In this document: one piece after another, positions 5,271-24,397 of the stretch
Layout: each line of letters starts with the position of its first letter
Numbering within the stretch: the stretch's first letter is position 1
Assembly (NCBI RefSeq): GCF_001513785.1
Contig: NZ_LNQS01000001.1
Span: 62,001-126,000 of the forward strand
DNA: 64,000 nt
Direction: 5' to 3'
Origin: Rheinheimera sp. EpRS3
Lineage (GTDB): Bacteria > Pseudomonadota > Gammaproteobacteria > Enterobacterales > Alteromonadaceae
The notes under the pieces: model-generated
The model's input: the letters and a program-made list of their open reading frames with translations, nothing else
Databases searched by the model: none
What the model was told of the DNA's origin: nothing
Program-made: the position numbers and the translations under genes

Positions 5271-6296
5271 ATGCAGCTATCCGGTGCAGTCGATAAGGTC
5301 AGTAACAGTGCGCTAACGCCGCTTAATGCGGCGGATCGGGCTGCTGTGATCAAAGCTGTCCGTGCTGATGATGCCGGCCGCACTGTGCCGGTATCACGGC
5401 AGTCGCGGCAAATTCAGGTATTAAGCAAATGGGCAATGGCGGCAGATGTTAGTAAACAGCTAAGCCAGACTGATCAAACCGAGCGTAATATCCGCCAGGC
5501 ATATCAGGCGCTGGAAAACCTGCGCCGACAGCTGAATACACCGGGCCACAGCAAATTGTCAGTGCAACAACAGCAGCAGGCGCAGCAGCAGTTAGCGCAG
5601 CTGGAGCAAAAGCTGTTACACAAGAGTTCAGGCCTCAATGCCGATTTAACCCCGGTTAGCGCCCAACCTGCGCCGTTAAAAGCCAGCCTTAGCCATAATA
5701 TAGATTTACTGTCAGAGCGGCGTCAAAATGAGCAAGTCAGTATTCTGCTGGGCCGCAGTGGCAATGCTGTCAGTATCAGCTTACCGGCTGGCCAGAGTGC
5801 AGAGCAAAATCTGCATACTGTGCAGCAAGCCTTTGCCCGTCAGCAAATTAGTGTTGGCAGCGATAATCAGCAGCAGCTGTACTTTTCTGCCGAAGCACGC
5901 GATGCTCGTAAGTTGCAGGAGCCCTGGTTAATCAGCGGCCAGGGTGTGCGTGTTGCAGCGGGTAACCCGGTTAGTGTAAAACTGCAGGCTGTCGACAGCA
6001 CACTGGCGCAATTGGGTAAAGCGGCCTCGACAGCCGACAATGTGCAGGCGTACAGCCAGCAAATTCAGCAGGCGCAGCAGCAGTTAAAAGATGCTCTTGT
6101 TAAAGTACAGGCACAGCGCACAGCGCTGCAGGCGCAACTGGTGGCAATTTCGCAAAGCCAGAGTGACAACACTGAATTGAATGCGCTTAGCCAGCAACTG
6201 CGTATAGAAATGCAAAGTGGCAGTAAAAGCGCGGTGTCGGTGGTGATGTCGCAAGCCAATATTACCCGCAGTCTGGTTGAGTTTGGTTTGGGTTGA
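5271..6296 (+). CDS. Unassigned Gln-rich coiled-coil protein in the lateral flagellar operon (possibly LafW-like)
   Basis: I do not recognise the family securely. The 341-residue product has no signal peptide or membrane helix. It has two long Gln/Ala-rich helical segments (about 55-120 and 255-330) flanking a mixed central region. The helix-centre-helix layout resembles secreted axial or hook-associated proteins, which are exported without a signal sequence. Position between flgL and the Maf gene is where some lateral clusters carry an accessory hook-associated gene (lafW); that assignment is inference from position only. RBS AAGGTG lies 6 nt before the ATG. It is co-directional with the flg block and spaced 13 nt from flgL. 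Confidence 0.6.
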   Translation: MQLSGAVDKVSNSALTPLNAADRAAVIKAVRADDAGRTVPVSRQSRQIQVLSKWAMAADVSKQLSQTDQTERNIRQAYQALENLRRQLNTPGHSKLSVQQQQQAQQQLAQLEQKLLHKSSGLNADLTPVSAQPAPLKASLSHNIDLLSERRQNEQVSILLGRSGNAVSISLPAGQSAEQNLHTVQQAFARQQISVGSDNQQQLYFSAEARDARKLQEPWLISGQGVRVAAGNPVSVKLQAVDSTLAQLGKAASTADNVQAYSQQIQQAQQQLKDALVKVQAQRTALQAQLVAISQSQSDNTELNALSQQLRIEMQSGSKSAVSVVMSQANITRSLVEFGLG

Positions 6297-6303
6297 CGCA
6301 TTA

Positions 6304-7611
6304 ATGATTAACGACTGTTTTGCGCAAAATATGCGCGTGATTGCCAGCCGCTGGCCTAACCTGGTCACTGCTTTACAACAGGCCGCCGCTGAAAAACACC
6401 GCCCGGCAGTGCAACTGATCGAAGGGCAGGACAACACTCTGCTGATTAACGGCATCCAACTGACCAGCCGCCACAACCGGCAGCAGGAAGCCTTGCAGCA
6501 AATCAGCAAATTGCCGCAACATTATCCACATATTACGTTATACGGCACCGGCCTTGGCGATCTGCAGCAACAGTTGCTTGGCCGCGAACGCCTGCAGCAA
6601 CTTAATGTGTGTATCTTAAATGAATATGTTTTTGCGCTGGTGCTGCAATTGCTTGATCAGCGGCACTGGCTTAGCGATAGCCGGGTAACGTTACAACTGG
6701 CTGCCAGCCAAAGTGATATTCAACTGCCATTTGCTGTATTGCCGTCGGAATTGGTCTTGTCCAGTGACAGCAGTATGAGAGTTCGTGATCGCTTATACAG
6801 CGAGCTGGAAGCCGGTTATGCTGCGCAGCGCTTAAAACAGGATATCAGTCCTTTTTTGCCGCGCCTGCAACAAAATCAGCCTTTTTGGCAGCAAGACCAA
6901 CCGGTGCAGACGTTATTTAACTCGTTAGCTGCAGATAAAGACGTTTATGTCATCGCTGCGGGGCCTTCGCTTGAGCAACATTACGGCTTTATCAAGCAAG
7001 CACAGCAACAGCCCAACGCACCTTTGCTTATTTGCGTAGATACTGCAGTAGCAGCTTTGCTGTCGCAGGATATCCGGCCGGATATTATTGTTAGCCGCGA
7101 CCATAAAATCGGTTTACGGCACCTGCCCTGCAACAGCCTGACTGCCGCCAGCCGTCTGGTATATTTTCCGCTGGCTAACCCGGAGTTATTACAACATTTC
7201 CCCGGTAAGCGTTATATCGCTTTAAGCGACAGTGCTGTTTTTGACCCGGTGCGCAAACAATTGTCTGCCGCAACGTTATTCAGCTACGGTAGCGTAATAC
7301 ATCCTGCTGTTGATTTAGCTGTAAAAATGGCCGCTAAGCGTGTGTTATTGTTTGGTGCCGATTTTGCGTTTAGCCATAATAAAACCCATGCCAGCTGGCA
7401 AAACGGTGCTTTAGGGCCGGGTTATCAGGCCGCTACCGAGCAGGTTATTAACGGCTTTGGCGAAAAAGTTCCGACTTTACGTAATCTGCTGACCTACCTG
7501 ACAGGCTTAGAGCGTTACATCAGCAAGCAGCCTGCGGTCACATTTTTTAATACCTCTAAAGCCGGTGCGTTCATTGCCGGCACGCAATATCATGCGGAGC
7601 TTACCAATTAA
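6304..7611 (+). CDS. maf: Maf-type flagellin glycosyltransferase (DUF115 / MptE-like)
   Basis: Motility accessory factors transfer nonulosonic acids (pseudaminic or legionaminic acid) onto flagellin before export. The DUF115/MptE-like core is visible around residues 215-330: KDVYVIAAGPSLEQHY (nucleotide-sugar binding loop), LLICVDTAVAALL, DIRPDIIVSRD, and RVLLFGADFAFS. The start is placed at the ATG at 6304 (435 aa); an in-frame TTG at 6277 would overlap the upstream gene by 20 nt. Aeromonas lateral clusters carry a Maf gene (maf-5) at the same place, between flgL and lafA. No sugar-biosynthesis (pse/leg) genes are in this window, so the donor must be made elsewhere. The stop overlaps the next start (TAATG). 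Confidence 0.88.
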   Translation: MINDCFAQNMRVIASRWPNLVTALQQAAAEKHRPAVQLIEGQDNTLLINGIQLTSRHNRQQEALQQISKLPQHYPHITLYGTGLGDLQQQLLGRERLQQLNVCILNEYVFALVLQLLDQRHWLSDSRVTLQLAASQSDIQLPFAVLPSELVLSSDSSMRVRDRLYSELEAGYAAQRLKQDISPFLPRLQQNQPFWQQDQPVQTLFNSLAADKDVYVIAAGPSLEQHYGFIKQAQQQPNAPLLICVDTAVAALLSQDIRPDIIVSRDHKIGLRHLPCNSLTAASRLVYFPLANPELLQHFPGKRYIALSDSAVFDPVRKQLSAATLFSYGSVIHPAVDLAVKMAAKRVLLFGADFAFSHNKTHASWQNGALGPGYQAATEQVINGFGEKVPTLRNLLTYLTGLERYISKQPAVTFFNTSKAGAFIAGTQYHAELTN

Positions 7612-7877
7612 TGCGTACTGTTTCGCAATGTAAGCAGCACGCTAAAACACTGGCGTTGCAATTCCGGCTGGGTATCACTACGCAACCGGCACTTGAACTG
7701 GCAGAGCTTGCCGGGCAACTTATTAGCTTATTTGCCACTGCCACCCCACAGCAAAGCACTCAGCTACAGCAGTTGTTAACGGCAGTGCTGCAGTGCCAGC
7801 AAAACCGTGACTGGTTAGGCCTGGCCGATTACCTTGAGTACGAGCTGCAGCAACTACTGGCTGGCACCTTAGCCTGA
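7611..7877 (+). CDS. Small helical protein coupled to maf, function unknown
   Basis: This 88-residue product starts within the stop codon of maf (TAATG), so it is probably translationally coupled to it. It is predicted all-helical, with no signal peptide or membrane segment and two cysteines. The helices (QFRLGITTQPALELAELAG and DWLGLADYLEYELQQLL) are amphipathic and it resembles small adaptor or chaperone-like proteins in size, but I cannot assign a family. It is the last gene before the accessory cassette. A role assisting Maf or flagellin handling is inference from coupling alone. Confidence 0.7.
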   Translation: MRTVSQCKQHAKTLALQFRLGITTQPALELAELAGQLISLFATATPQQSTQLQQLLTAVLQCQQNRDWLGLADYLEYELQQLLAGTLA

Positions 7878-8016
7878 TTTCGCTGGTCAATAAGTAAAAT
7901 TAACCCTAATATAGTGTAATAATACAGAGCTAACCGGCTGTGTTATCTCGTTGTTTGCTGGCCCAAAACGCAGCTGACAAAGTGATATATTCAGCCTTGC
8001 CGGTAAGGAGTAAAGG

Positions 8017-8568
8017 ATGCCCAGCGAAACGATTTTCCGCGTCCCATTGTGGTTGTTCAGCTTCTCGTTAATCTCGTTAACACTTCCGGCTTGTGCCCAG
8101 CAAGCGGCACCGACGGCACCTGCTGCTGGTGAAATCACTTCTTATGGCGATTGTTCACTGATTGATTTTAAAGATATTGATGGCAGCGAGCTGACCAAAG
8201 CCGAGTTGCTGGAACGGATGGACGCTGATTTTGCCGCTAATCTGAATCAAAGTGAAAAATGTATGGCCGAGGCAATAAACAGCGGTGCCGGGCGGATCAG
8301 TGCTGCAGGTGCCGGGGCTAGTGGTGTGGCAGAGGCTGCCGCGGGTACTAATGAGCAGGCCGCGCAGTCGGCCGGTACTGAACAGACACAAAATGCGGAC
8401 AGTGCGAAAGAGTCTGACAGCTCACCGTCAAAGGCAACACAGAAAGGCAAGGCCCAGCAAGGTAACTCTGCCGTGTGTGAAACGGTGAAACAAGGCCTGG
8501 CAGGTGCCACGACTGAAGCTGAGAAAAAACATTTTAGCGCGCTGATGACACAATATGGCTGCGAATAA
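8017..8568 (+). CDS. Exported Ala/Ser-rich protein with four C-terminal-region cysteines, possible lipoprotein
   Basis: 183 residues, unknown family. Residues 8-26 form a hydrophobic signal ending LPAC at residue 26; Pro at -2 makes it an imperfect lipobox, so lipidation is uncertain. The mature part has a short folded region (DCSLIDFKDIDGSELTKAELLERM...KCMAEAI), a low-complexity Ala/Gly/Ser/Thr/Gln linker (about 90-150), and a small C-terminal region with two cysteines (VCETVKQG and the terminal YGCE). The four non-signal cysteines could form two disulfides in the periplasm. RBS AAGGAG lies 6 nt before the ATG. It is the first gene of the accessory cassette after a 139-nt gap that may hold its promoter. 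Confidence 0.75.
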   Translation: MPSETIFRVPLWLFSFSLISLTLPACAQQAAPTAPAAGEITSYGDCSLIDFKDIDGSELTKAELLERMDADFAANLNQSEKCMAEAINSGAGRISAAGAGASGVAEAAAGTNEQAAQSAGTEQTQNADSAKESDSSPSKATQKGKAQQGNSAVCETVKQGLAGATTEAEKKHFSALMTQYGCE

Positions 8569-8571
8569 TAC

Positions 8572-8631
8572 AGAATGGCCGTTAATAATTTAGAATAGCC
8601 GTGAATAATTTAGAATGGCCTTTAATAATTT
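8572..8631 (+). repeat. Three tandem copies of a 20-bp unit in an intergenic leader
   Basis: Copies begin at 8572, 8592 and 8612 (unit AGAATGGCCGTTAATAATTT; copies 2 and 3 differ at two and one positions) and a partial fourth (AGAA) starts at 8632. The array fills the gap between the exported protein gene and the RBS of the lipoprotein gene at 8648. It could be a slippage-prone repeat or a set of regulator sites; the 20-bp period is close to two helical turns. Confidence 0.9.
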
Positions 8632-8647
8632 AGAAGTGGAGCGGGTA

Positions 8648-9934
8648 ATGCAACCTCATTCTTTTTTGCAACAGAGTAAACACTGGCTGGTGGCGGCCTG
8701 TGCCCTGCTGGCACTGGCAATTAGCGGTTGTCAGTCTACCCAGACTAATGTTAGCAGCGTAGGCCCTGCTATTGGCGGCCAACCAAAAGCAGCGGAGCTG
8801 GGTAAAGCACAGCGTGAGTTTAAGTATCAGTCGGAAATTTATCTGAATGTGGCCGTGCCGGTATTTGATCCCGGCATTCCTTTGGATGCCAAAGGCAACA
8901 TTAATGATAAAAAAGTGGCTGAAGAAGATATCTGGCCACAGGTACGGCGGCTGGAAGCAAACCGTTTTGCTATTGATACTAAAAAAGCGCTGGCGGCCAC
9001 TAAGGTGTTTGGTTCGATTAATGTTACGCCGGATGCGTCGGTTTCTGCCGATGTGTACGTACTTGGCAAAATCAATTATTCCGATACCGAAACCGTGCGC
9101 ATCAGTGTGCGGGTAATGGATGCTACCAATGATATCTGGGGTGAGGAAACCTTTGAACATCAGGTAGGTGAAGCCTTTTACCGTGACGCCCTGCGTAAAG
9201 AGCAAAACCCTTACGCACCGGTATTTAACGATATTGCCGCTTACGTTTACGATTTACTGATTAAAAAATCAGAAGCAGATAAAAAGAAAATTCAGCAGGT
9301 ATCTGATTTGCGCTATGCCGCTATGTATAGCCAGGAAGCTTTTTCACCTTATATTGTCAGCAAAAGAAAGGGTTTTACCTCAAGGCAAACCGTATTTGAG
9401 CTGAAAGGCGCACCCGCAGCAAACGATCCTATGCTGCAGCGGGTAAACTTACTGCAGGCAAAAGATGAGCAGTTTATTGACCAGCTGCAAGACAGCTACG
9501 AGGCGTTTTATGCCGAGTCAGACGAGGCCTACAGCAAATATCAGCGCGAAACCCTGCCGATTGCCGCTGATATCCGCAAGAAAAAAGCCGAGCGGGCCAC
9601 TCAGCAATTAGTTGCTGCCGGTAGTGCAGTGCTGGGTATTATGCTGGTGAAAAATTCCAATTCTGCTATCGGCGAAGTAGGGGCTATCGCGGCCGGTGCA
9701 GCAGCCATATACAGCCTTAGCCAGGCGATAGAAACAAACCGCGAGCTGAGTGCACAACGTGATGTGCTTAGTGAGATGGGGCAAAGCCTGGATATTAAAG
9801 TTACCCCTCAGGTGGTAGAACTTAACGAGCAGAGTATTGAGCTTAAAGGCACAGCCACCGAGCAGTACACCCAGTTAAGACAAAAGTTGTTAGAGATTTA
9901 TCAGTTAGAAGCAACACCTAATCAGCAACTGTAA
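8648..9934 (+). CDS. Outer-membrane-type lipoprotein with CsgG/LpoB-like N-terminal half
   Basis: The start is placed at the ATG at 8648 (428 aa), with GGAG 7-11 nt upstream; an upstream in-frame ATG at 8615 lies inside the tandem repeat. A signal peptide ends in the lipobox AISGC. Asp is absent right after the Cys (CQST), so outer-membrane sorting is expected. Residues about 50-190 (NVAVPVFDPGIP...FGSINVTPDASVSADVYVLGKI...ISVRVMDATNDIWGEETFEH) resemble the CsgG/LpoB-like fold of periplasm-facing lipoproteins; this is a by-eye call. Residues 250-330 are helical, and about 325-370 are Gly/Ala-rich and hydrophobic. In the cassette it would be the outer-membrane partner of the inner-membrane proteins. 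Confidence 0.75.
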   Translation: MQPHSFLQQSKHWLVAACALLALAISGCQSTQTNVSSVGPAIGGQPKAAELGKAQREFKYQSEIYLNVAVPVFDPGIPLDAKGNINDKKVAEEDIWPQVRRLEANRFAIDTKKALAATKVFGSINVTPDASVSADVYVLGKINYSDTETVRISVRVMDATNDIWGEETFEHQVGEAFYRDALRKEQNPYAPVFNDIAAYVYDLLIKKSEADKKKIQQVSDLRYAAMYSQEAFSPYIVSKRKGFTSRQTVFELKGAPAANDPMLQRVNLLQAKDEQFIDQLQDSYEAFYAESDEAYSKYQRETLPIAADIRKKKAERATQQLVAAGSAVLGIMLVKNSNSAIGEVGAIAAGAAAIYSLSQAIETNRELSAQRDVLSEMGQSLDIKVTPQVVELNEQSIELKGTATEQYTQLRQKLLEIYQLEATPNQQL

Positions 9935-9964
9935 GTAGATCTTAGTTCAGGCAAGGAACCGGAT

Positions 9965-11437
9965 GTGGCCAGAGCGTTAGATGATGGAATAAACCACGAC
10001 AAGCAGTCGAAAAAAGCTTTTTATATTAAAGCAATAGTTGGTTTTTTTGCGGTGTTGCTGTTATTGGCGCTGGTGTTGCTGGCGCTAAACTGGTTTTCAG
10101 CTTTAGCACCGGCTGGCAGCAATACGCTGCCTGCAGCGGCGGCACCTTTATCTGCAGAGTCTTCATCCGCAGAGCCTGCTGCACCTTCAGCGGCAGGCAT
10201 GCCGGATGAACAAGCCCGTAAAGCGTTACAGCAACTGCTGTCAGACACCAACCATCAGGTTAATCAGCTGGCGGCTGATACACACCTTGCTGCCTGGCAA
10301 AGTGCTGCGGTAAATACCTTAGTGCAAAACATGCAGCAAGCTTACCGCGTGTATGGCCAGCAGCTTTACAGTGAAACTGGCACCTTGTTGCAGGATATTC
10401 AGCAGCAAAGCAGCGTGTTGCAGCAAAACTATACCCAGGCTTATGAAACGGCCTACCAAACCGCCAGTGCGGCTTTTGCTAATAGCAACCTGCAGGCGGC
10501 CCAGCTTAACAACAGCCGGGCGCTGGCAGTAAACCCTTTATATGCGCCGGCATTGCAGCTAAAACAGCGGTTGGATGTAGCCAGCCAGGTACAAGAGCTT
10601 TGGCAGCAAGAGCGGGTAGCCAGGCTGGAAAACAATGTCAGTAAGCAAAAAGCCGTGCTGGAGCAAATTCGGCAGTTAGATCCGGCCGATCAGCGCGCTG
10701 CGCAGAGTTTAGCCACGTTAAACCAGCAAGCTCAGCAACAATCTTTTGCTGAGGTGTTGGCGCAGGCGGTTGCCGCACTGGATCAGGCCGATTACGCCAC
10801 TGCCCGTCAGGCGCTAGCCCGGGCGCGTAGCATTGATAGCAACAGGCCGGAGCTAGTAAGTTTACAGCGTCGGCTGGATGGTGCCGAAAAAGCCGGTGCG
10901 GCCGCGCAGGCAGAGCAACAAGTGCAAGTATTCAGCGAAGTGGATGAATGGCCAACAGTGAAAATGGTGGCAGAAAATGGCCTGAAGTTAAACGCCGATA
11001 ACCCGGTGTTGCAACAGGCACTGCAAAGCGCTAACCAGATTATTCAGGCCGGACAGCGGCTGGAGTCATTTATCGCTAACCCGCAACGTCTTACCGATGC
11101 CAATATCCGTCAGCGCGCCAACGAAGCGATTAGCGCAGCACAACCGCTGGCAGCGCAAAGCGCCCGGTTGGCGCAGCAATTAGCTCAGCTGCAGTCATTG
11201 CTGCAGGTTCAAGCGCAAACTGTGCCGGTATTGGTGAAAAGCGACGGCCGCACTACTATCCGCGTGCTGGGGGTGGGTAATGTTGGCGAAGTAAAAGAAA
11301 AAACCATTAATCTGGCGCCGGGTACCTATCAGTTTGAAGCTAGCTGTAAAGGCTATCGTACTGAAATTATTACTGTTGAAATCAGCCCGGCAACCACTGC
11401 GCCTGATGTGCAATTACAATGCAAAACCCGGATTTAA
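9965..11437 (+). CDS. Membrane-anchored helical/TPR-like protein with C-terminal PEGA-like domain
   Basis: 490 residues starting at GTG with AAGGA 7 nt upstream (an ATG 3 nt earlier stops after five codons). A single transmembrane helix at about 23-46 follows a positively charged N-terminus, giving an N-in, periplasmic-body topology. After an Ala/Ser/Pro linker come long Gln/Ala-rich helices, with TPR-like pieces (ALDQADYATARQALARARSID). Residues about 420-490 form a PEGA-like beta domain (LAPGTYQFEASCKGYRTEIITVEI). PEGA domains are small surface or periplasmic beta modules often found as repeats. The next gene starts 12 nt downstream and also has TM plus PEGA, so the two may form one structure. 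Confidence 0.78.
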   Translation: MARALDDGINHDKQSKKAFYIKAIVGFFAVLLLLALVLLALNWFSALAPAGSNTLPAAAAPLSAESSSAEPAAPSAAGMPDEQARKALQQLLSDTNHQVNQLAADTHLAAWQSAAVNTLVQNMQQAYRVYGQQLYSETGTLLQDIQQQSSVLQQNYTQAYETAYQTASAAFANSNLQAAQLNNSRALAVNPLYAPALQLKQRLDVASQVQELWQQERVARLENNVSKQKAVLEQIRQLDPADQRAAQSLATLNQQAQQQSFAEVLAQAVAALDQADYATARQALARARSIDSNRPELVSLQRRLDGAEKAGAAAQAEQQVQVFSEVDEWPTVKMVAENGLKLNADNPVLQQALQSANQIIQAGQRLESFIANPQRLTDANIRQRANEAISAAQPLAAQSARLAQQLAQLQSLLQVQAQTVPVLVKSDGRTTIRVLGVGNVGEVKEKTINLAPGTYQFEASCKGYRTEIITVEISPATTAPDVQLQCKTRI

Positions 11438-11449
11438 GAGGAATAAGCC

Positions 11450-13429
11450 GTGAGTCGGATTGATACATCTATCGCATCAGATAAACGCAAACGTAAATGG
11501 ATAGTGCTCAGCAGTATTGTGCTGCTGGCTCTGGTTATGGCCAGCTATCTGGCCTGGCTGTTTTTACTAAAAGGTTTTACCGTCACCGTACTGCCGGCTG
11601 AGGCCGCGCAAACCCAGCGCTTTGCCATGGTATCAGGCAGCGGCTTTTTTCTTGAAAACAAACTGTATTTATTGGGCTCGCGCGCGGAAATTGAGGTCAG
11701 TGCCGATAAGTTTGAGCCATTACAACGGCTGGTGCTAAGCAGTGAACAAAGCAACCTCAGTGTTACGCTGCAGCCAATGCCAGCCAGTATTAAGCTGGAT
11801 ACAAAGCCTGAAGTGGCGGATATCAGCTGGACAGTAAATGGCCAGCTACACAGCCAGGGCCCTATGCTTACAGGCCGTTTTGCGCCGGGTGAGTATCAAA
11901 TCAGTGCCGAACAGCCGTATTTTCAGCCACAAAGCCTGACACTGACCGCTGCTATTGCCGACGAGATTGCGCAAACGCTGACACTAACACCGGTACAGGG
12001 CGAACTAACACTGGCCTCGCGCCCGGTAGGGGCCAGCGTTACGGTAAATGGTCAGGCGGTGGGCAAAACGCCATTGCGTTTAGCGCAAAACGGCGGCAGC
12101 TATCGGGTGCAGGTAAATCTGGAGGGCTACGAGCCGGTGCAGGATACTATCGATATCACTTATCGCCAGCCCACGCCTGAGCGAGATTATTTTTTGCAGC
12201 CGGTCCAGGCAGTGCTAAACATCACCACCCAGCCACAGGATGGCGTGTTGCTGCTAAATGGTAAACCGGCCAGTAGCCCGGCCAGTATTGATGCCGGTAA
12301 AGCCTATACCGTGCGTTATGAAAAGGCCGGTTACCTGGCGCAGTCGCAAAGCGTTACGTTAAAACCGGCAGAGCAGCGTACACTGAATTTTGATCTTAAA
12401 GCAGAAATGGGCCAGGTACGCTTTAGTGCCAATGAAACAGCCGAAGTGCTGATTAATGGCAAACCCATGGGGCACACCCCGTTAACCTTATCGTTGCAGG
12501 CGTTAGCACAGAAGGTTGAGTTTCGTAAAACCGGTTATCGTACTGTAAGCCGCACTGTTACGCCCAGCCAGCGGCAAACGCAGACAGTACAAGCCGAACT
12601 GCTGACAGAGTTCGACGCCCGCCGCCGCGAAGGTAAACCCTTGTTTGCCCAAACGCTGGGCATCAGCTTTGTTGGCGTGCAGCTAAAAGCCTTTACCATG
12701 GGCTCGCCTGCCAATGAGGCGGATCGGGGCCGTAACGAGCATCCGCTGAATGTTAATTTCAGCCGCAATATCTGGGTATCGGCGCATGAGATCACCGAAG
12801 CTCAGTATGGTGCTTTTAAAGGGCAAACCGGCGGCTCGGCACTGCCGGTAACTCAGGTATCCTGGCAGGATGCGGTTAAATTTACTAACTGGTTAAGTGT
12901 GCAGGAAGGGCTGGCACCATTTTATAACCTGCAGGGCGACAGGGTGGTGGGTATTAATGCCGACAGCCCCGGCTACCGGCTGTTAACAGAAGCCGAGTGG
13001 GAGTTTGTTGCCAAGCACAACCGGCGTGCCGCCAGAACCACCTATGTTTGGGGCAGCGAAGATCGGCTGCGCGACAAACAGGGTAATTTTGCCGATAAGT
13101 CGGTACAGGGCCAGCAAACCTTCTTTTTCCGCGATTATAACGATGGCTTTGCCGGTAAGGCGCCGGTAGGCAGCTTCCGTGCTGATCGGGCCGGTTTTTA
13201 TGATCTCGATGGCAATGTGCGCGAATGGGTGCACGATGCTTATGCGGTAACTGCGCCTGATACCTCCAGGCAGTATACTGATTATCGCGGCGCCGCCAGT
13301 GGCCAGGGGCATGTGATCAAAGGGGCGTCGTATAAATCCGGCCGCTTAAAAGAACTCAGAGCCAGTATCCGTAACGAAGGCAACGGGCCACAAGACGATG
13401 TCGGTTTTCGCATTGCCCGCTATCAATAG
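11450..13429 (+). CDS. Membrane-anchored protein with four PEGA-like repeats and a cysteine-free SUMF1 (FGE-like) domain
   Basis: 659 residues from GTG at 11450 (GAGGAA upstream). One transmembrane helix at about 17-40; PEGA-like repeats at about 108-180, 183-252, 255-320 and 322-385 (for example RPVGASVTVNGQAVGKTPLRL and ETAEVLINGKPMGHTPLTL). Residues about 395-659 are a SUMF1/formylglycine-generating-enzyme fold: FTMGSPANEADRGRNEHP, EITEAQYGAF, PVTQVSWQDAVKFTNWLS, YRLLTEAEWEFVAK, FYDLDGNVREWVHD, and the terminal GFRIAR. The whole protein has no cysteine, so it cannot perform FGE-type copper/cysteine chemistry. A binding or structural role, as in GldJ/GldK-type SUMF1 proteins of gliding machines, is more likely (inference). 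Confidence 0.85.
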   Translation: MSRIDTSIASDKRKRKWIVLSSIVLLALVMASYLAWLFLLKGFTVTVLPAEAAQTQRFAMVSGSGFFLENKLYLLGSRAEIEVSADKFEPLQRLVLSSEQSNLSVTLQPMPASIKLDTKPEVADISWTVNGQLHSQGPMLTGRFAPGEYQISAEQPYFQPQSLTLTAAIADEIAQTLTLTPVQGELTLASRPVGASVTVNGQAVGKTPLRLAQNGGSYRVQVNLEGYEPVQDTIDITYRQPTPERDYFLQPVQAVLNITTQPQDGVLLLNGKPASSPASIDAGKAYTVRYEKAGYLAQSQSVTLKPAEQRTLNFDLKAEMGQVRFSANETAEVLINGKPMGHTPLTLSLQALAQKVEFRKTGYRTVSRTVTPSQRQTQTVQAELLTEFDARRREGKPLFAQTLGISFVGVQLKAFTMGSPANEADRGRNEHPLNVNFSRNIWVSAHEITEAQYGAFKGQTGGSALPVTQVSWQDAVKFTNWLSVQEGLAPFYNLQGDRVVGINADSPGYRLLTEAEWEFVAKHNRRAARTTYVWGSEDRLRDKQGNFADKSVQGQQTFFFRDYNDGFAGKAPVGSFRADRAGFYDLDGNVREWVHDAYAVTAPDTSRQYTDYRGAASGQGHVIKGASYKSGRLKELRASIRNEGNGPQDDVGFRIARYQ

Positions 13430-13450
13430 TATCAATAGTAGGAGTTAAAC

Positions 13451-13558
13451 ATGAAAAAACGCATCTTACTGGCCATAGTGTTACTGGCGGTGGCGGGATC
13501 TGCAGCGGCCTATTTTGTGTCACTGGATGCGCCCCAGGATTTCCCTATTAATATCTGA
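13451..13558 (+). CDS. 35-residue single-helix membrane peptide
   Basis: ATG at 13451 preceded by AGGAG with 6-nt spacing. The product begins MKKRILLAIVLLAVAGSAAA and ends FPINI; residues 5-23 form one hydrophobic helix or an uncleaved signal. It fits exactly between the PEGA/SUMF1 gene (21 nt upstream) and the channel gene (19 nt downstream) and reads in the same direction. Small single-helix peptides are common accessory subunits of membrane complexes, so it may be a subunit here; that is inference. It is below usual gene-calling length cut-offs. Confidence 0.7.
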   Translation: MKKRILLAIVLLAVAGSAAAYFVSLDAPQDFPINI

Positions 13559-13577
13559 CGAGCGGAGCAGCACATTT

Positions 13578-14348
13578 ATGCATAACAAAGATTCTGCCGC
13601 AATGAACCCCGGCATTATTACCAGTGTGTTGGTGCTGGCGGGTTGTTTCACTCTGGTGCATTTATTTTATGAAGGCATAGTACGGCCAACTGCGGCGGCT
13701 ATTCTGGCCGCCGAAGGCAGCAGCGGCTTGTTTTCTGTCTGGGTTATTTTAAAAGATATGGAGCAGCAGGTATGTTTTTCATTGCTGCTGTTTTGCCTGT
13801 TTCTGATGGGTTATAAATTATGGCGCCTGTTGGATGAAGAAACCCTGTATACCCGCGATTTTCTGCGTGATTATGATAAAAGCCTGCCGCTTGATGTCGA
13901 GCTGGCACTGTCAGAGCTGGAGGCCTCGTCGTACAAAGATAACCCGGCTATGGCAACCTGGATCAACTGTATCCGGCGTTTTAAAAATACCCGCAATGTG
14001 CAGCACGCTGCCGACGCTATTGAATCCTCAGTAGAAAGCCTGGCGGCGCAGCTGGAAAGCGGCAACAGTATGGTGCGCTATATTATCTGGGCCATTCCCA
14101 GTATCGGCTTTGTCGGTACCGTGCGCGGTATTGGCCAGGCACTGGCGCAGGCAGATAAAGCTCTGGCCGGCGACATCGCCGGTATGACAGCCTCGCTGGG
14201 GGTTGCCTTTAATTCAACCCTGGTAGCTTTATTTATCTCGCTGATTTTAATGTACTTTATGCACATTCTTAATGGCAGGCAGGATACGATGGTGTTAAAT
14301 ACACAACAATCCTGTGAGAAACACCTGTTAGCGCATTTGCATAACTGA
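13578..14348 (+). CDS. MotA/TolQ/ExbB-type ion channel subunit
   Basis: 256 residues from ATG at 13578; GTG at 13515 would run through the preceding small gene. Predicted membrane helices lie at about 12-34, 62-82, 167-188 and 207-231. The third and fourth carry the family signature: IPSIGFVGTVRGIGQAL (compare the GLFGTVWGI region of TolQ/ExbB) and LGVAFNSTLVALFISLILMYF. The loop between helices 2 and 3 is cytoplasmic, as in the family. Members form pentamers around two B-subunit helices and convert proton or sodium flow into motion. The B partners are probably the next two genes. It is not a flagellar MotA: that role is filled by the gene at 22127. Confidence 0.85.
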   Translation: MHNKDSAAMNPGIITSVLVLAGCFTLVHLFYEGIVRPTAAAILAAEGSSGLFSVWVILKDMEQQVCFSLLLFCLFLMGYKLWRLLDEETLYTRDFLRDYDKSLPLDVELALSELEASSYKDNPAMATWINCIRRFKNTRNVQHAADAIESSVESLAAQLESGNSMVRYIIWAIPSIGFVGTVRGIGQALAQADKALAGDIAGMTASLGVAFNSTLVALFISLILMYFMHILNGRQDTMVLNTQQSCEKHLLAHLHN

Positions 14349-14358
14349 TTAGTACGCT

Positions 14359-15417
14359 ATGAGATTAAAGCGGCGCGCTGAAGATGGTTTTAATATGTCA
14401 TTCCTGGATGTGATGGCATGCGGGCTGGGCGCTGTTATTCTGATCCTTATTCTGGTTGATTTTAACGCCTTTGTACCAGAGCCGACCGATGAAACCAACA
14501 AGCTGCAGCAGGAACTAAACGCCGCCCAGCAGCAACGCGAGCAACTGCAAAAATCGATTGATGAGTTGAATAACAAAATTGCACTGGAATCCTCCAGCCA
14601 GCAGGATGTTAAGCTGTCGCAAAGCGATACCAGCAGTGATCAAAGCAAGTTACTGCAACAAATTTCCACCGAACTGGCTGTAGTGGCCGATCTGGAAAAA
14701 CAACTTGCCGCTATCGCCCGCTTGCCGGTGCCGGATGCTAATGTGCAGCTAAGCGGCAGTGGCCAGCAAAATTATATTACCGGCCTGAAAGTTGAAGGCG
14801 AGGAAATTGGCATTTTGCTGGATAAATCAGCGTCGATGATGGGCGAAAACCTGCTGGAAGTGCTGCGCTATATGGCATTGCCCGATAACCAAAAGCTGGC
14901 GCTGCCCAAATGGCAACGCAGCCGGCGCGCCGCACAGTGGCTTTTAGCCCGCTTGCCAAAAAACGCCAAAGTAACAGTAGTGGCTTTTTCTGAAGACGCT
15001 ACTATGTTGGGCCAGCGTGCGGCCAGCTCTGCGAAGGTATCCGATTCAATGAACGCCATAGTGCGGGATATTGGCAAGCTGGTGCCAAACGGCGGTACCA
15101 ATTTGCAAATTGGCCTGCAAAAACTGCGTGAGTTGCACCCGAATGTCGCTGATGTATATCTGATTACCGATGGTTTACCAACGTTGGGTGACGGCCTTAG
15201 TGTGCGCTGTCGCGGTTTGCTAACCAGTAAAAAGTCTATTTCGTCACAGTGCCGGCAGGAGCTGCTGGTTGAAACCATTAAACGTGCCGGCCAGGGACTG
15301 CGGATGAATGTGATTTTGTTGCCGATTGAAGGTGATCCTTATGCGTCGGCGATGTACTGGAGCTGGTCGCAGGTAACACAGGGTACCTTTTTGGCCCCGG
15401 CAAAGGAGTGGCCATAG
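14359..15417 (+). CDS. ExbD/TolR-like membrane helix fused to coiled coil and vWA domain (first copy)
   Basis: 352 residues. A basic N-terminus (MRLKRRAEDGF) is followed by SFLDVMACGLGAVILILILVDF at about 14-35. The Asp at the start of this helix matches the essential Asp of ExbD/TolR (FIDVM-type motif), the proton-carrying residue of B-type stator subunits. Residues 45-125 are coiled coil. The C-terminal half is a von Willebrand A domain with a complete-looking MIDAS: DKSAS (about 155-159), the Thr of GGTNLQIG, and ITDG. The gene overlaps its paralog by 1 nt and follows the channel gene by 10 nt. ExbD/TolR/MotB normally have periplasmic domains, so the vWA domain is predicted periplasmic. 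Confidence 0.85.
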   Translation: MRLKRRAEDGFNMSFLDVMACGLGAVILILILVDFNAFVPEPTDETNKLQQELNAAQQQREQLQKSIDELNNKIALESSSQQDVKLSQSDTSSDQSKLLQQISTELAVVADLEKQLAAIARLPVPDANVQLSGSGQQNYITGLKVEGEEIGILLDKSASMMGENLLEVLRYMALPDNQKLALPKWQRSRRAAQWLLARLPKNAKVTVVAFSEDATMLGQRAASSAKVSDSMNAIVRDIGKLVPNGGTNLQIGLQKLRELHPNVADVYLITDGLPTLGDGLSVRCRGLLTSKKSISSQCRQELLVETIKRAGQGLRMNVILLPIEGDPYASAMYWSWSQVTQGTFLAPAKEWP

Positions 15418-16382
15418 TGGCAAGACGCATGCGCAGGATAAAACGGCCGCCGGTAGAAATTTTTACCCTGTCGTTTCTTGACATTATTTCCTGTGCTTTT
15501 GGTGCTGTGGTATTGCTGGTACTGCTGGCAAAAAATGGTGAAAGCGACACTGAACTGGGGCCGGATAATTTAAGCACCATGGTAGAGCAGGTGTTGGCGG
15601 CCCAGCTTAACGTTGAGCTGCTAAAAGGTGCGGTATCAGACAAACAGCAGCAACTTGCTGCCGCTCAGGCCCGTTCTGCCTCTGTAACTGAACAGCTAAA
15701 ATCGCTGGAGTCTTCCATTCCCCGTGCGCAGCAGACGTTGCAACAATTGCAGGATCAGGCCAGCTCGCTGCGTAATGAATTACGCCAGGCCACGGCGATG
15801 CTGAATGTGCCTAAATCCACCGATAAACCGTCAGATGAAGTGGGGGGCATTCCAACCGATGCGGATTATGTGATCTTTGTTATTGATAACTCCGGCTCAA
15901 TGGTGTCTGGCAGTAAGTGGAATCAGGTGATTAATGTGGTGAATGATATTTTAGTTAATCACCCGCAAATGAAAGGCTTTCAGGTGATGGCCGCCGACGG
16001 CACCTTTTTGTATCCCGGCCAGGAAGGCCAGTGGCTGAGTGATTCAACCAGCATGCGCCAGCGCGCTATGGATCGGATGAAACGCTTTACCGGCGGTGGC
16101 AGTGCGCCGGAGGTTGGTATTATACGTGCGCTGGACCTGTACAGTAAAACACGCGGCAAAGTGAGCCTGTATGTATTTGGTGATGACTACCGCTCAGCCA
16201 GCCTGGATGCCATTGTTGGCGCTATTACCAGCAAGAATGCCGGTACCGGTGGCGAGCCGCGTTTTCGCATTCACGGTATCGGTTTTTACCGGCCATCAGG
16301 TGGTGATGCCATGCAGTTTGCCGCCTTTATGCAGGCGGTAGCAAAGCGCAATCGTGGTGCTTTTGTCGGGCTGGCATTTTAG
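15417..16382 (+). CDS. ExbD/TolR-like membrane helix fused to coiled coil and vWA domain (second copy)
   Basis: Start chosen at GTG 15417 (321 aa; AAGGAG with 8-nt spacing, 1-nt overlap TAGTG); a GTG at 15408 would overlap the RBS. Same architecture as the preceding protein: basic N-terminus, helix TLSFLDIISCAFGAVVLLVLL with the same SFLD motif, coiled coil at about 50-125, then a vWA domain with DNSGS MIDAS motif and VFGDD. The two helices share the pattern SFLD..xC.(L/F)GAV, which argues for duplication. Two different B-type subunits would suit the B-dimer seen in 5:2 motors. It is the last gene of the cassette; lafA follows after 121 nt. Confidence 0.85.
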   Translation: MARRMRRIKRPPVEIFTLSFLDIISCAFGAVVLLVLLAKNGESDTELGPDNLSTMVEQVLAAQLNVELLKGAVSDKQQQLAAAQARSASVTEQLKSLESSIPRAQQTLQQLQDQASSLRNELRQATAMLNVPKSTDKPSDEVGGIPTDADYVIFVIDNSGSMVSGSKWNQVINVVNDILVNHPQMKGFQVMAADGTFLYPGQEGQWLSDSTSMRQRAMDRMKRFTGGGSAPEVGIIRALDLYSKTRGKVSLYVFGDDYRSASLDAIVGAITSKNAGTGGEPRFRIHGIGFYRPSGGDAMQFAAFMQAVAKRNRGAFVGLAF

Positions 16383-22126: not shown

Positions 22127-22984
22127 ATGCAAAAAATTGTAGGTTTTATTATCGTACTGGGCGCCGTTGTCGGTGGTTATATGTTTGCCGGTGGCAATGT
22201 AGCAACACTGTGGCAACCTGCTGAATTTCTTATTATTTTTGGTGCCGGTTTTGGTGCTTTGGTAGTAGGTAATTCCGGTTATGTACTAAAAGAAATGTGG
22301 TCTCAGCTTAAGTCGCAGTTTGTAAAGCATAAAGACAGCAGCGCACTGTACCGCGAGCTGTTGTTATTAATGTATTCATTGCTGGATCTGGCCAAAAGTA
22401 AAGGCTTAAGAGAGTTGGACGAACATGTCGAAAACCCGCATACCAGTTCGGTTTTTCTCGCTTACCCTTTAGTGCTGGAGCATGAGGCGCTGGTGGTGTT
22501 TGTTTGCGATAATTTACGGCTGATGAGCATGGGCAAACTAAACGCGCATGACTTTGACAGCCTGCTGGAGCAGGAAATTTATACCATTGAACAGCAAAAA
22601 TTAAAGCCTTCATCCGCCATGGCCACTATTGCTGAAGCTATGCCGGGTTTTGGCATTTTGGCTGCGGTGGGCGGCATTATCATTACCATGCAGCATCTGG
22701 ATGGCCCGCTAAGCAATATTGGTTATCACGTTGCGGCTGCACTGGTGGGCACCTTTATCGGTATTTTTGGCTGCTATTGTCTGATGGCGCCGTTGAGCTC
22801 AGCGATGGAACAGTATGTGAAAAAGCAGGTTGCCCTGCTTGAATGTGTACGCGCTATCTTGGTGGCTCATGCTAAAGGCCATGTGGCAATAGTAGCAACC
22901 GACTCTGGCCGTCGGATGATTAACGAAGAGCAGAAGCCGTCGTTTACCACGATGGAACAGTGGATTAACGATAAGGCCGCCTGA
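22127..22984 (+). CDS. lafT: Lateral flagellar stator subunit LafT (MotA family, proton type)
   Basis: MotA-type subunit; five copies surround the MotB dimer and push on FliG. 285 residues with four membrane helices (about 2-22, 28-50, 165-190, 200-222). MPGFGILAAVGGIIITMQHL and AALVGTFIGIFGCYCLMAPLSSAMEQYVK are the family hallmarks. It resembles enteric MotA (about 295 residues) more than the shorter sodium-type PomA. The stop overlaps the lafU start (TGATG), giving translational coupling. Confidence 0.93.
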   Translation: MQKIVGFIIVLGAVVGGYMFAGGNVATLWQPAEFLIIFGAGFGALVVGNSGYVLKEMWSQLKSQFVKHKDSSALYRELLLLMYSLLDLAKSKGLRELDEHVENPHTSSVFLAYPLVLEHEALVVFVCDNLRLMSMGKLNAHDFDSLLEQEIYTIEQQKLKPSSAMATIAEAMPGFGILAAVGGIIITMQHLDGPLSNIGYHVAAALVGTFIGIFGCYCLMAPLSSAMEQYVKKQVALLECVRAILVAHAKGHVAIVATDSGRRMINEEQKPSFTTMEQWINDKAA

Positions 22985-23991
22985 TGAACAGCTCCAGCTC
23001 GCCGGTTATTATTAAGCGCAGTCAGCGCAGCGCCGCCAAAGCCAAATCCGGCGGTGCCTGGAAAGTCGCCTTTGCCGATTTTACGCTGGCAATGATGGCG
23101 TTCTTTATGGTGTTGTGGATTCTAGAAGTCTCCAATATGAAAGAGCGCGCCGAGATTGCCAACTATATGCGCACCCATTCCATTTTCGAGGGCAGCCCGG
23201 CGCCGTTTGAACCGGGTAACAGCCCGTTTCCGGTCGATTTAGGCGGCACACCCTCGGTGGTAGATCAGAATTCTGCCAACACCTTGCCGCCGGATAACCC
23301 GCTGCCGGGCATGTCGGAATATTTGCAGGTGCCCTCAGGCGACGACAGGCCACTTGCAGGCAAGGGCGATAAGTTAAATTCACTGATTGATGGCCAGTTC
23401 GACAGCCCGGCTGAACTGAGCTTGTTGCTGCAAGCCTTTGAACAGGTAGCGGCCGAGCTGATGGCGCAGGAGCATATCCAGCTGGACATAGTACCGTCAG
23501 GCTTGCGGGTTATTATTCGCGACAATAAAAAGCAGCAAATGTTTATCCGTGGGCAAATGCGCATGACGCCGTTTTTTGAAGACTTGCTGCTGAGTCTGGG
23601 CCCGGTGTTTAAAAAAGTACAAAACAAACTGATTATTTCTGGCCATACCGACAGCACAGCGTTTAGTGGCAGCCAGTACAGCAACTGGGAATTGTCGGGC
23701 GATCGTGCTTTGCAGGCCCGCCAGGTGTTGGCCGCCGGTGGCATGCCGGTTGAGCGGGTAGCGCAGGTAGCTGCGTTTTCGGCTACCCGGCCGCTAAACG
23801 AGCAAGACCGTGGCGACAGCGCCAACCGGCGCATTGAATTGCTGATTTTAACCAGTGCCGCTGAAGCTGAACTCAACCAGTTGTTTTCCCCCGATAACCA
23901 GAACAACGCCGTACAGCAGGCAGCAGAAGAAGCACAGCGCAACCAACCCGTTGGCCGTTCAGGAATAAGGATAACCGATGGTAGCAACTAA
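22984..23991 (+). CDS. lafU: Lateral flagellar stator subunit LafU (MotB family, proton type)
   Basis: 335 residues. GGAWKVAFADFTLAMMAFFMVLWILEV holds the single transmembrane helix with the ion-carrying Asp near residue 31; the AFAD...AMMAFF pattern is the enteric proton type. The C-terminal OmpA-like peptidoglycan-binding domain (about 160-295) contains ISGHTDSTAF and DRALQARQVL...DRGDSANRRIELLIL. It overlaps lafT by 1 nt and the PilZ gene by 14 nt. Confidence 0.93.
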   Translation: MNSSSSPVIIKRSQRSAAKAKSGGAWKVAFADFTLAMMAFFMVLWILEVSNMKERAEIANYMRTHSIFEGSPAPFEPGNSPFPVDLGGTPSVVDQNSANTLPPDNPLPGMSEYLQVPSGDDRPLAGKGDKLNSLIDGQFDSPAELSLLLQAFEQVAAELMAQEHIQLDIVPSGLRVIIRDNKKQQMFIRGQMRMTPFFEDLLLSLGPVFKKVQNKLIISGHTDSTAFSGSQYSNWELSGDRALQARQVLAAGGMPVERVAQVAAFSATRPLNEQDRGDSANRRIELLILTSAAEAELNQLFSPDNQNNAVQQAAEEAQRNQPVGRSGIRITDGSN

Positions 23992-24397
23992 ACCTGATGC
24001 TTCGCGCAAGTATTTACGCTGGTACTTTAGCGCCCAAAGTCAGCCTGTGGCTATTCAATCCAAAGGTATAGCGGTAAAACTGTGGCAGAGCGGCTTATTT
24101 GGCAGCCAGATATGTCAGGCAGTGGTAAAAGACATGAGCCTTGGCGGTGCCGGTTTGCTGGTGCCGCTGGCAAAAACGGTACCGGATATCGTCATGGTTG
24201 AATATGACAACCAATTTAAGATTAAAGCTGAGGTGGTATACCGCCGTCAGGTCAGCGACAAGCTGGAGTTTCTTGGTATCAGCTGGCTGGACGCCAAGCG
24301 CGAACAGCGGCTGAATTTACTGCGCCGCTTAAGTAAAAAAGCCTACCGGGCATCACGCGATACCGGTGCGACGGATAACGTAACTGCAGATGAATAA
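23978..24397 (+). CDS. PilZ-domain protein (predicted c-di-GMP receptor)
   Basis: 139 residues. PilZ domains bind cyclic di-GMP through RxxxR and (D/N)xSxxG motifs. Here RKYLR is at about 10-14 and DMSLGG at about 50-55, so both are present although the spacing is longer than usual. VEYDNQFKIKAEVVYRRQ and LEFLGISWLD complete the beta barrel. It lies between the stator gene lafU (14-nt overlap) and fliM (8-nt overlap), so it is made with the motor. YcgR-type PilZ proteins brake motors by touching MotA or FliG/FliM; a brake or assembly role here is inference. Confidence 0.82.
   Translation: MVATKPDASRKYLRWYFSAQSQPVAIQSKGIAVKLWQSGLFGSQICQAVVKDMSLGGAGLLVPLAKTVPDIVMVEYDNQFKIKAEVVYRRQVSDKLEFLGISWLDAKREQRLNLLRRLSKKAYRASRDTGATDNVTADE

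Follow-up and report, generated by a model that had tools for sequence, protein, structure and literature searches.

The cassette of eight genes at positions 8017-16382 of the analysed stretch of Rheinheimera sp. EpRS3 DNA (64,000 nucleotides; hereafter the window) is a real, widespread and little-described envelope machine and probably belongs to the class of ion-driven 5:2 motors. The superfamily of such motors powers flagella, Tol, Ton, the type IX secretion system (T9SS) and Zorya, and the cassette spans several bacterial classes, including cultured marine strains. Its genes, lettered 5' to 3' as A, B, C, D, pep (the 35-aa peptide), E, F and G, were all found as open reading frames (ORFs) closely packed on one strand. 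A previous sequence-only reading had held that all parts of an energized inner-to-outer-membrane complex are present, and they are: a MotA_ExbB channel, a pair of proteins that each combine a TolR-like helix with a vWA domain, and the lipoprotein B. Its inventory was right for the channel, the two vWA proteins, the lipoprotein and the exported protein, but of its two PEGA proteins C lacks a Pfam PEGA match, and the SUMF1 domain lies within D.

The motor core is formed by E, F and G. E (13578-14348, forward strand like all genes of the cassette; 256 aa from the ATG at 13578, in a frame open from 13515) is a MotA/TolQ/ExbB-type channel protein matching Pfam MotA_ExbB (PF01618, 1.5e-14). Its Thr181 and Thr214, invariant in alignments A5 (8 rows) and A1 (6 rows), would by analogy be the ring residues. 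F (14359-15417) has a TolR/ExbD-like transmembrane (TM) helix with Asp17 (SFLDVMACGLGA), a coiled-coil-like stretch and a vWA domain (Pfam VWA_2, 2.1e-10) with a set of the MIDAS (metal-ion-dependent adhesion site) type, DKSAS, T247 and D271. G (15408-16382), which overlaps F by 10 bp, repeats this plan with a second TolR-like helix carrying Asp25, a coiled-coil-like stretch and a vWA domain (DNSGS) whose VWA_2 match is weak (7.8e-6; 26.9 bits, just below the cut-off of 27). The two window proteins are 20% identical and belong to two distinct families. After removal of the near-duplicates L091, L112, L113 and L139, DxSxS was conserved in 77/77 members of the F family, T247 in 72/77 and D271 in 76/77; Asp17 was kept in all 69 rows that cover the position, and in the remaining 8, cut by start-codon choice, F-[LI]-D reads just upstream. 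Asp25 and DxSxS were each found in 73/73 members of the G family. Rows in these and the following counts are not independent, because near-duplicates such as L094/L096 stay in them. No Pfam match to MotA_N, the MotB plug or an OmpA-like domain was found in E, F or G, and no separate tolR/exbD among the eight window proteins (Pfam; other loci were not checked systematically). Profile searches of PDB sequences were uninformative for both B and E.

Recurrence of the cassette was followed by tblastn (E <= 1e-3) against named genome contigs, which gave at least 571 relatives in 594 stretches, with cassette membership not certain for all; the best 80 of these were kept. ORF calling relied on a greedy longest-ORF script that missed E in L138, L139, L152 and L165 and misplaced some starts; assignment used profiles built from four copies per gene. 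Gene order was read without the ORFs that no profile matched, at 54 loci of complete context (sequence reaching 6.5 kb or more ahead of E and 4.5 kb or more beyond it; near-duplicates L091, L097, L098, L112, L113 and L139 removed). B-C-D-E-(H)-F-G, in which H is an additional gene of some loci, stood in this order at 51 of them, the exceptions being L133, L140 and L163. Co-occurrence elsewhere had been set beforehand as a check on the sequence-only reading, and this result bears it out: the recurrence of the six larger genes B-G in fixed order is more than chance.

The cassette is thus a conserved system of Gammaproteobacteria, Alphaproteobacteria and Desulfobacterota. Carriers among the best 80 of at least 571 relatives include Alteromonadales, Idiomarinaceae, Methylophaga, Woeseiaceae, Pseudomonadales, Rhodospirillales, Kordiimonas, Desulfobacteraceae and others, as well as a single contig with the label Acidimicrobiaceae, which may be a binning error; two Aliidiomarina were among the loci examined. 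Among named rows, that of Rheinheimera oceanensis lies nearest to the window, at 99% across the channel. At E <= 1e-15, the channel was matched in 6 of the 295 genomes of an order sample, two of which (G050 and G139) match only at about 1e-22 and by eye represent another type, and in 16 of the 398 genomes of a phylum sample. Thirteen of these 16 carriers fall in one family of small genomes, f57 (G345, G359, G367, G428, G446 and others); 11 of the 13 belong to genus g161, other listed genomes of which gave no match. Within this family, too, the distribution is patchy. No plasmid copy of the channel was found at E 1e-15. Nor did the flanks share a recurring family, with at most three members each among 117 flank proteins (25 of 157 Pfam families listed).

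A tree of E (80 rows) has two well supported sides of 26 and 54 rows; H was found in 25 of the 26 rows of the smaller side, and the 54 rows of the larger side are without it. H, which lies between the channel and vWA genes (L028:7394-8749; L145:10746-12110), combines an Hsp70-fold domain with an FHA-like C-terminus. Several loci show further genes. In a Woeseiaceae-related group a Ser/Thr kinase and a PP2C phosphatase lie upstream of the cassette (L157:240-2363), and in some loci two extra lipoprotein-like genes, I and J, without a Pfam family, follow G (L028:3952-5285), with an M48 peptidase after them in L028. A related but distinct arrangement at L029 (1417-6104) has a MotA-like channel and one TM-vWA protein amid FHA, PP2C and Ser/Thr-kinase genes (Pfam), and by eye L070, with PP2C- and FHA-like neighbours, and L071, with a TolR-like helix neighbour, resemble it. 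A phage integrase and a Mu-type transposase stand on either side of the L027 copy (11993-13219 and 793-2328), which hints at mobility.

Among the companions, D (11450-13429; 659 aa) unites PEGA (1.1e-36) and FGE-sulfatase/SUMF1 (4.9e-33; FGE, formylglycine-generating enzyme) in one protein, and is the only Pfam PEGA match of the window cassette. It has three PEGA stretches and a C-terminal pseudo-FGE/SUMF1 part; its N-terminus in the window is a TM segment (by eye) with no lipobox Cys. The FGE part is the best conserved region of D (69 rows), and yet Cys was found in the catalytic segment of 0/83 family members, the window copy included. An active SUMF1/formylglycine-generating enzyme is therefore rejected for D, since the catalytic cysteine pair is absent in 83/83. 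C (9965-11437; 490 aa) has an inner-membrane anchor (TM by eye) and a periplasmic TPR-like region, for which the family profile has TPR matches in PDB sequences, and a PEGA-like C-terminus that is visible only in the family consensus. B (8615-9934) is a lipoprotein with the lipobox ..AISGC and, because Gln occupies position +2, is expected in the outer membrane. It consists of a TolB-N/CsgG/PelC-like domain (about 66-224), a helix (272-345) and a C-terminal alpha/beta part, and its Cys39 is almost invariant (52 rows). No Pfam family matched B above cut-off; its AlphaFold2 model (mean predicted local distance difference test score 83.4) gave fold matches to CsgG, PelC and a TolB-N-like domain. 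A (8017-8568; 183 aa) is exported (signal peptide by eye) and rich in Ala, Gly and Ser. Its relatives have in common a short C-terminal helix-like motif, ..QIRxAAxxExDPxxKxxLWxEYRKYKG, the window version ending ..YGCE. An A-like gene stands just upstream of B at 23 of 53 loci by the seed profile and at about 50 of 53 by eye, and one A protein cluster joins 36 loci.

The smallest gene, pep (13451-13558), encodes a precursor of 35 aa with a signal sequence and, by eye, a 15-aa mature part ending ..FPINI. It had been listed by the sequence-only reading, where its core role went unnoticed: the peptide is a coding and conserved core component, as constant as D and E. At 84 loci with D and E adjacent on one strand (near-duplicates L091, L098, L112, L113 and L139 removed), a small ORF ending P-x-[DN]-I-stop lies within or at the edge of the D-E gap in 83; the exception is L026, whose gap ORF ends FPISI. 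None of 298 opposite-strand ORFs has this ending. All 83 peptides carry a terminal Ile and a Pro at -4, as the search pattern demands; Phe at -5 occurs in 76, and -2 is Asp in 72 and Asn in 11, these 11 carrying another acidic residue higher in the tail. All 83 have a strong hydrophobic stretch, 82 have K/R ahead of it and 79 a signal-peptidase-like site. A rough guess at the mature length separates two groups, of 15-29 (n = 56) and 51-81 (n = 23). Between the window ORF and that of L021 there are 5 synonymous and 0 amino-acid changes, against L022-L024 8 and 2, and against L025 14 and 8; more distant rows vary more (L103, 10 synonymous and 15 amino-acid). A Shine-Dalgarno AGGAG precedes the peptide ORF in L021-L025. 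In the 4.4 Mb genome the tail pattern occurs once and a reversed control pattern twice. A spurious ORF is rejected by the gap conservation, the synonymous bias and the single genome occurrence of the tail, whereas the genome comparison leaves the tail unsupported as a general sorting tag. Very short ORFs can thus be core machine parts, and this one offers the best way into the task of the cassette.

The window copy lies within a lateral flagellar cluster, as the sequence-only reading had said, between an MptE-like/Maf gene (6277-7611) with an 88-aa gene (7611-7877) upstream and lafA (from 16504; NCBIfam lat_flg_LafA_2, 8.3e-104, 346.9 bits, below the cut-off of 365) downstream. It was also correct that no gene of the cassette is a known flagellar part and that the true stator pair is encoded separately (22127-23991). 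Where that reading went on to suggest a flagellar role, the evidence points elsewhere: the cassette is not a flagellar part, and the flagellar link is local. Among the 31 genomes of a genus sample, B was found in nine and the lateral Maf gene (at least 59% identity) also in nine; six have both the cassette and Maf, three only the cassette and three only Maf. The three cassette-only genomes (G011, G020 and G023) keep all seven larger genes and their order within other flanks, which include recBCD-like genes in G020 and, in G023, an integrase together with a Mu-type transposase, and in the three Maf-only genomes (G007, G018 and G041) the lateral cluster is colinear, with the 88-aa gene followed directly by lafA and the cassette exactly missing. 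When unassigned flank ORFs of 85 loci were compared with 25 ORFs of the window lateral cluster, not all of them annotated, lateral-like neighbours appeared at a single locus, L097, itself of Rheinheimera oceanensis. Flagellin was found in 41 of 48 selected carriers, the genomes of 40 of the 80 loci plus 8 more, which is a share close to that of the phylum sample (330 of 398 genomes). The seven carriers without flagellin include the L132 genome (a single-contig Arenicellales chromosome of 4.4 Mb) and G437, which has a completeness rating of 100%. One observation weighs against this separation: in all six genomes with both, which are the copies of the window's own clade, the cassette remains inside the lateral cluster, flanked by the 88-aa gene and lafA and, in G002, accompanied by two additional genes. 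Decoupling in both directions, the flanks and the flagellin counts nevertheless reject a flagellar accessory as the general function.

The region just upstream of the cassette (7878-8016, forward strand) is alike among the lateral-cluster copies compared; simple regular expressions found no sigma-28/54-like pattern in it, and promoter and terminator scans were about as expected from shuffled sequence. The lateral stator comprises a MotA-type gene (22127-22984; MotA_N/MotA_ExbB) and a MotB-type gene (22984-23991; MotB_plug/OmpA). Between the latter and a FliMN_C gene lies a PilZ-domain gene (23978-24397), possibly a cyclic di-GMP input to the lateral motor. A 341-aa protein without a convincing family (5271-6296) adjoins Maf and is kept in the lateral clusters compared.

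These data are probably best explained by a self-contained ion-driven trans-envelope motor, in which D, C and B link a heterodimeric vWA axle to the outer membrane. E would build a pentameric channel around a heterodimeric axle made of the F and G helices, a 5:2 assembly; ion flow past the axle aspartates would move the axle, and the torque would swing both vWA domains in the periplasm. C and D are predicted to extend from the inner membrane into the periplasm, where the dead FGE domain of D, like that of PorK, may have given up enzyme function to serve as a docking hub. B would be the outer-membrane lipoprotein that receives the force, and its CsgG/PelC/TolB-N-like domain would fit either a ring or a port partner in the outer membrane. 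The end use may be outer-membrane-linked transport, assembly or envelope maintenance. The processed peptide may serve the machine as a subunit of its own, plugging, licensing or gating it once the free C-terminal P-x-[D/N]-I has docked on one partner. D is one suspect for binding this tail because the FGE groove binds a proline-containing peptide, and F is another because vWA metal sites bind acidic ligands; the groove of D and the vWA metal site of F would be the most likely docks. We propose, tentatively and with less than even confidence, a peptide-gated motor, in which a periplasmic peptide of 15-30 residues (50-80 in a second type), encoded at a fixed place between the hub and channel genes and either stoichiometric or regulatory, licenses the motor by its tail on the D groove or the F vWA metal. 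If true, peptide gating spans two old family branches, the second of which adds H and sometimes a neighbouring Ser/Thr kinase and PP2C. We know of no trans-envelope motor with a dedicated peptide ligand, although no search was aimed at this point.

Another explanation, which we regard as possible though rather unlikely, is T9SS-like secretion, where the motor drives the pseudo-FGE hub and an outer-membrane port, and the peptide acts as plug or processing signal, or is itself the product. The B domain resembles CsgG and PelC, which serve export, and the FGE part of D matches GldK (7.7e-18) and PorK chains (6.5e-10). The GldK match reaches only 65 bits, far below the cut-off of 350, and D is about equally close to active FGEs; D is anchored by a TM segment and is not a lipoprotein, the eight proteins have no barrel- or translocon-type Pfam match, and the flanks offer no common family. 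The comparable hub in T9SS is driven by an ion motor (PMC12421860). Slightly less credible is a force transducer of the Tol-Pal kind, with B as the outer-membrane partner through which the outer membrane is tied in or remodelled: no TolB propeller and no Pal/OmpA domain was found in the eight proteins (Pfam), and presence in 9 of 31 genus genomes is patchy, unlike a maintenance system.

Two further readings are improbable. An accessory of lateral flagella, tuning the stator or sensing surfaces, would suit the position in the window, but the cassette-only genomes, the exact absences, the single flagellar neighbourhood and the flagellin-free carriers make it a very poor candidate. Anti-phage defence of the Zorya type has, by a small step, the least to recommend it. 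It shares an ion motor with a TM-Asp partner, weak matches to ZorA (1.6e-3) and ZorB (8.7e-5), patchiness and the L027 copy near phage genes; on the other side stand the absence of plasmid copies of the channel at E 1e-15 and the lack of any ZorC, ZorD or ZorE match among the seven cassette proteins scanned (the 35-aa peptide being outside the scan). A defence island left no sign in the 117 flank proteins, which gave at most two members per PADLOC family (25 of 41 listed), mostly what we take to be kinase models.

The closest known systems are the TPH-vWA motors, found through homology to an Idiomarina protein and proposed in silico in 2025 (PMC12204202, Mol Biol Evol), in which a TolQ-like pentamer would surround a turning pair of vWA proteins; the text on the family proposes no function. 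There, as here, a TolQ-like gene adjoins two different vWA genes, the TM helix has a proton-binding Asp and a separate TolR/ExbD is absent (PMC12204202). In the cassette we found the same adjacency (E-(H)-F-G at 51/54 loci), a heterologous vWA pair, the conserved Asp and the channel threonines. The words 'PEGA', 'formylglycine' and 'SUMF' do not occur in the main text of that paper, although its figure 4 and supplement may show more genes, and its section 8 names no peptide, lipoprotein or hub for the family. The sequence-only reading had called the cassette apparently undescribed; this no longer applies to the E/F/G core, on which PMC12204202 alone bears among the papers listed, whereas the companion set, the peptide and the pseudo-enzyme hub were not found, and appear undescribed, within the literature searched (subscription papers, preprints, supplements and figures lying outside it).

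PorKLMN/GldKLMN of T9SS likewise joins an ion motor to a repurposed hub, PorK having an FGE fold without catalytic cysteines that is reused for docking (PMC12421860). The cassette differs in its axle, which is a vWA pair and not PorM/GldM (no GldL/GldM match was listed), in the TM anchor and PEGA repeats of D where the T9SS hub is an outer-membrane lipoprotein, and in its exported peptide and mainly proteobacterial distribution. Tol-Pal and Ton belong to the same motor superfamily (MotA_ExbB), and B has a TolB-like domain fold, though TolB-N-like only; TolA/TonB were, like the propeller and Pal, absent from the eight cassette proteins (Pfam). Zorya ZorAB also pairs a MotA-like channel with a TM-Asp partner, but ZorB has an OmpA-like domain where the cassette has vWA, and the MotA_N, MotB plug and OmpA-like domains of the flagellar stator MotAB are present in the true pair of the window but not in E, F or G (Pfam). 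The Agl/Glt gliding motor of Myxococcus has one channel, two different TolR-type partners, and TPR and FHA parts. The cassette itself joins three unusual traits: a predicted vWA-headed axle of two unlike subunits, a dead enzyme as its likely hub and an exported peptide with a near-fixed tail.

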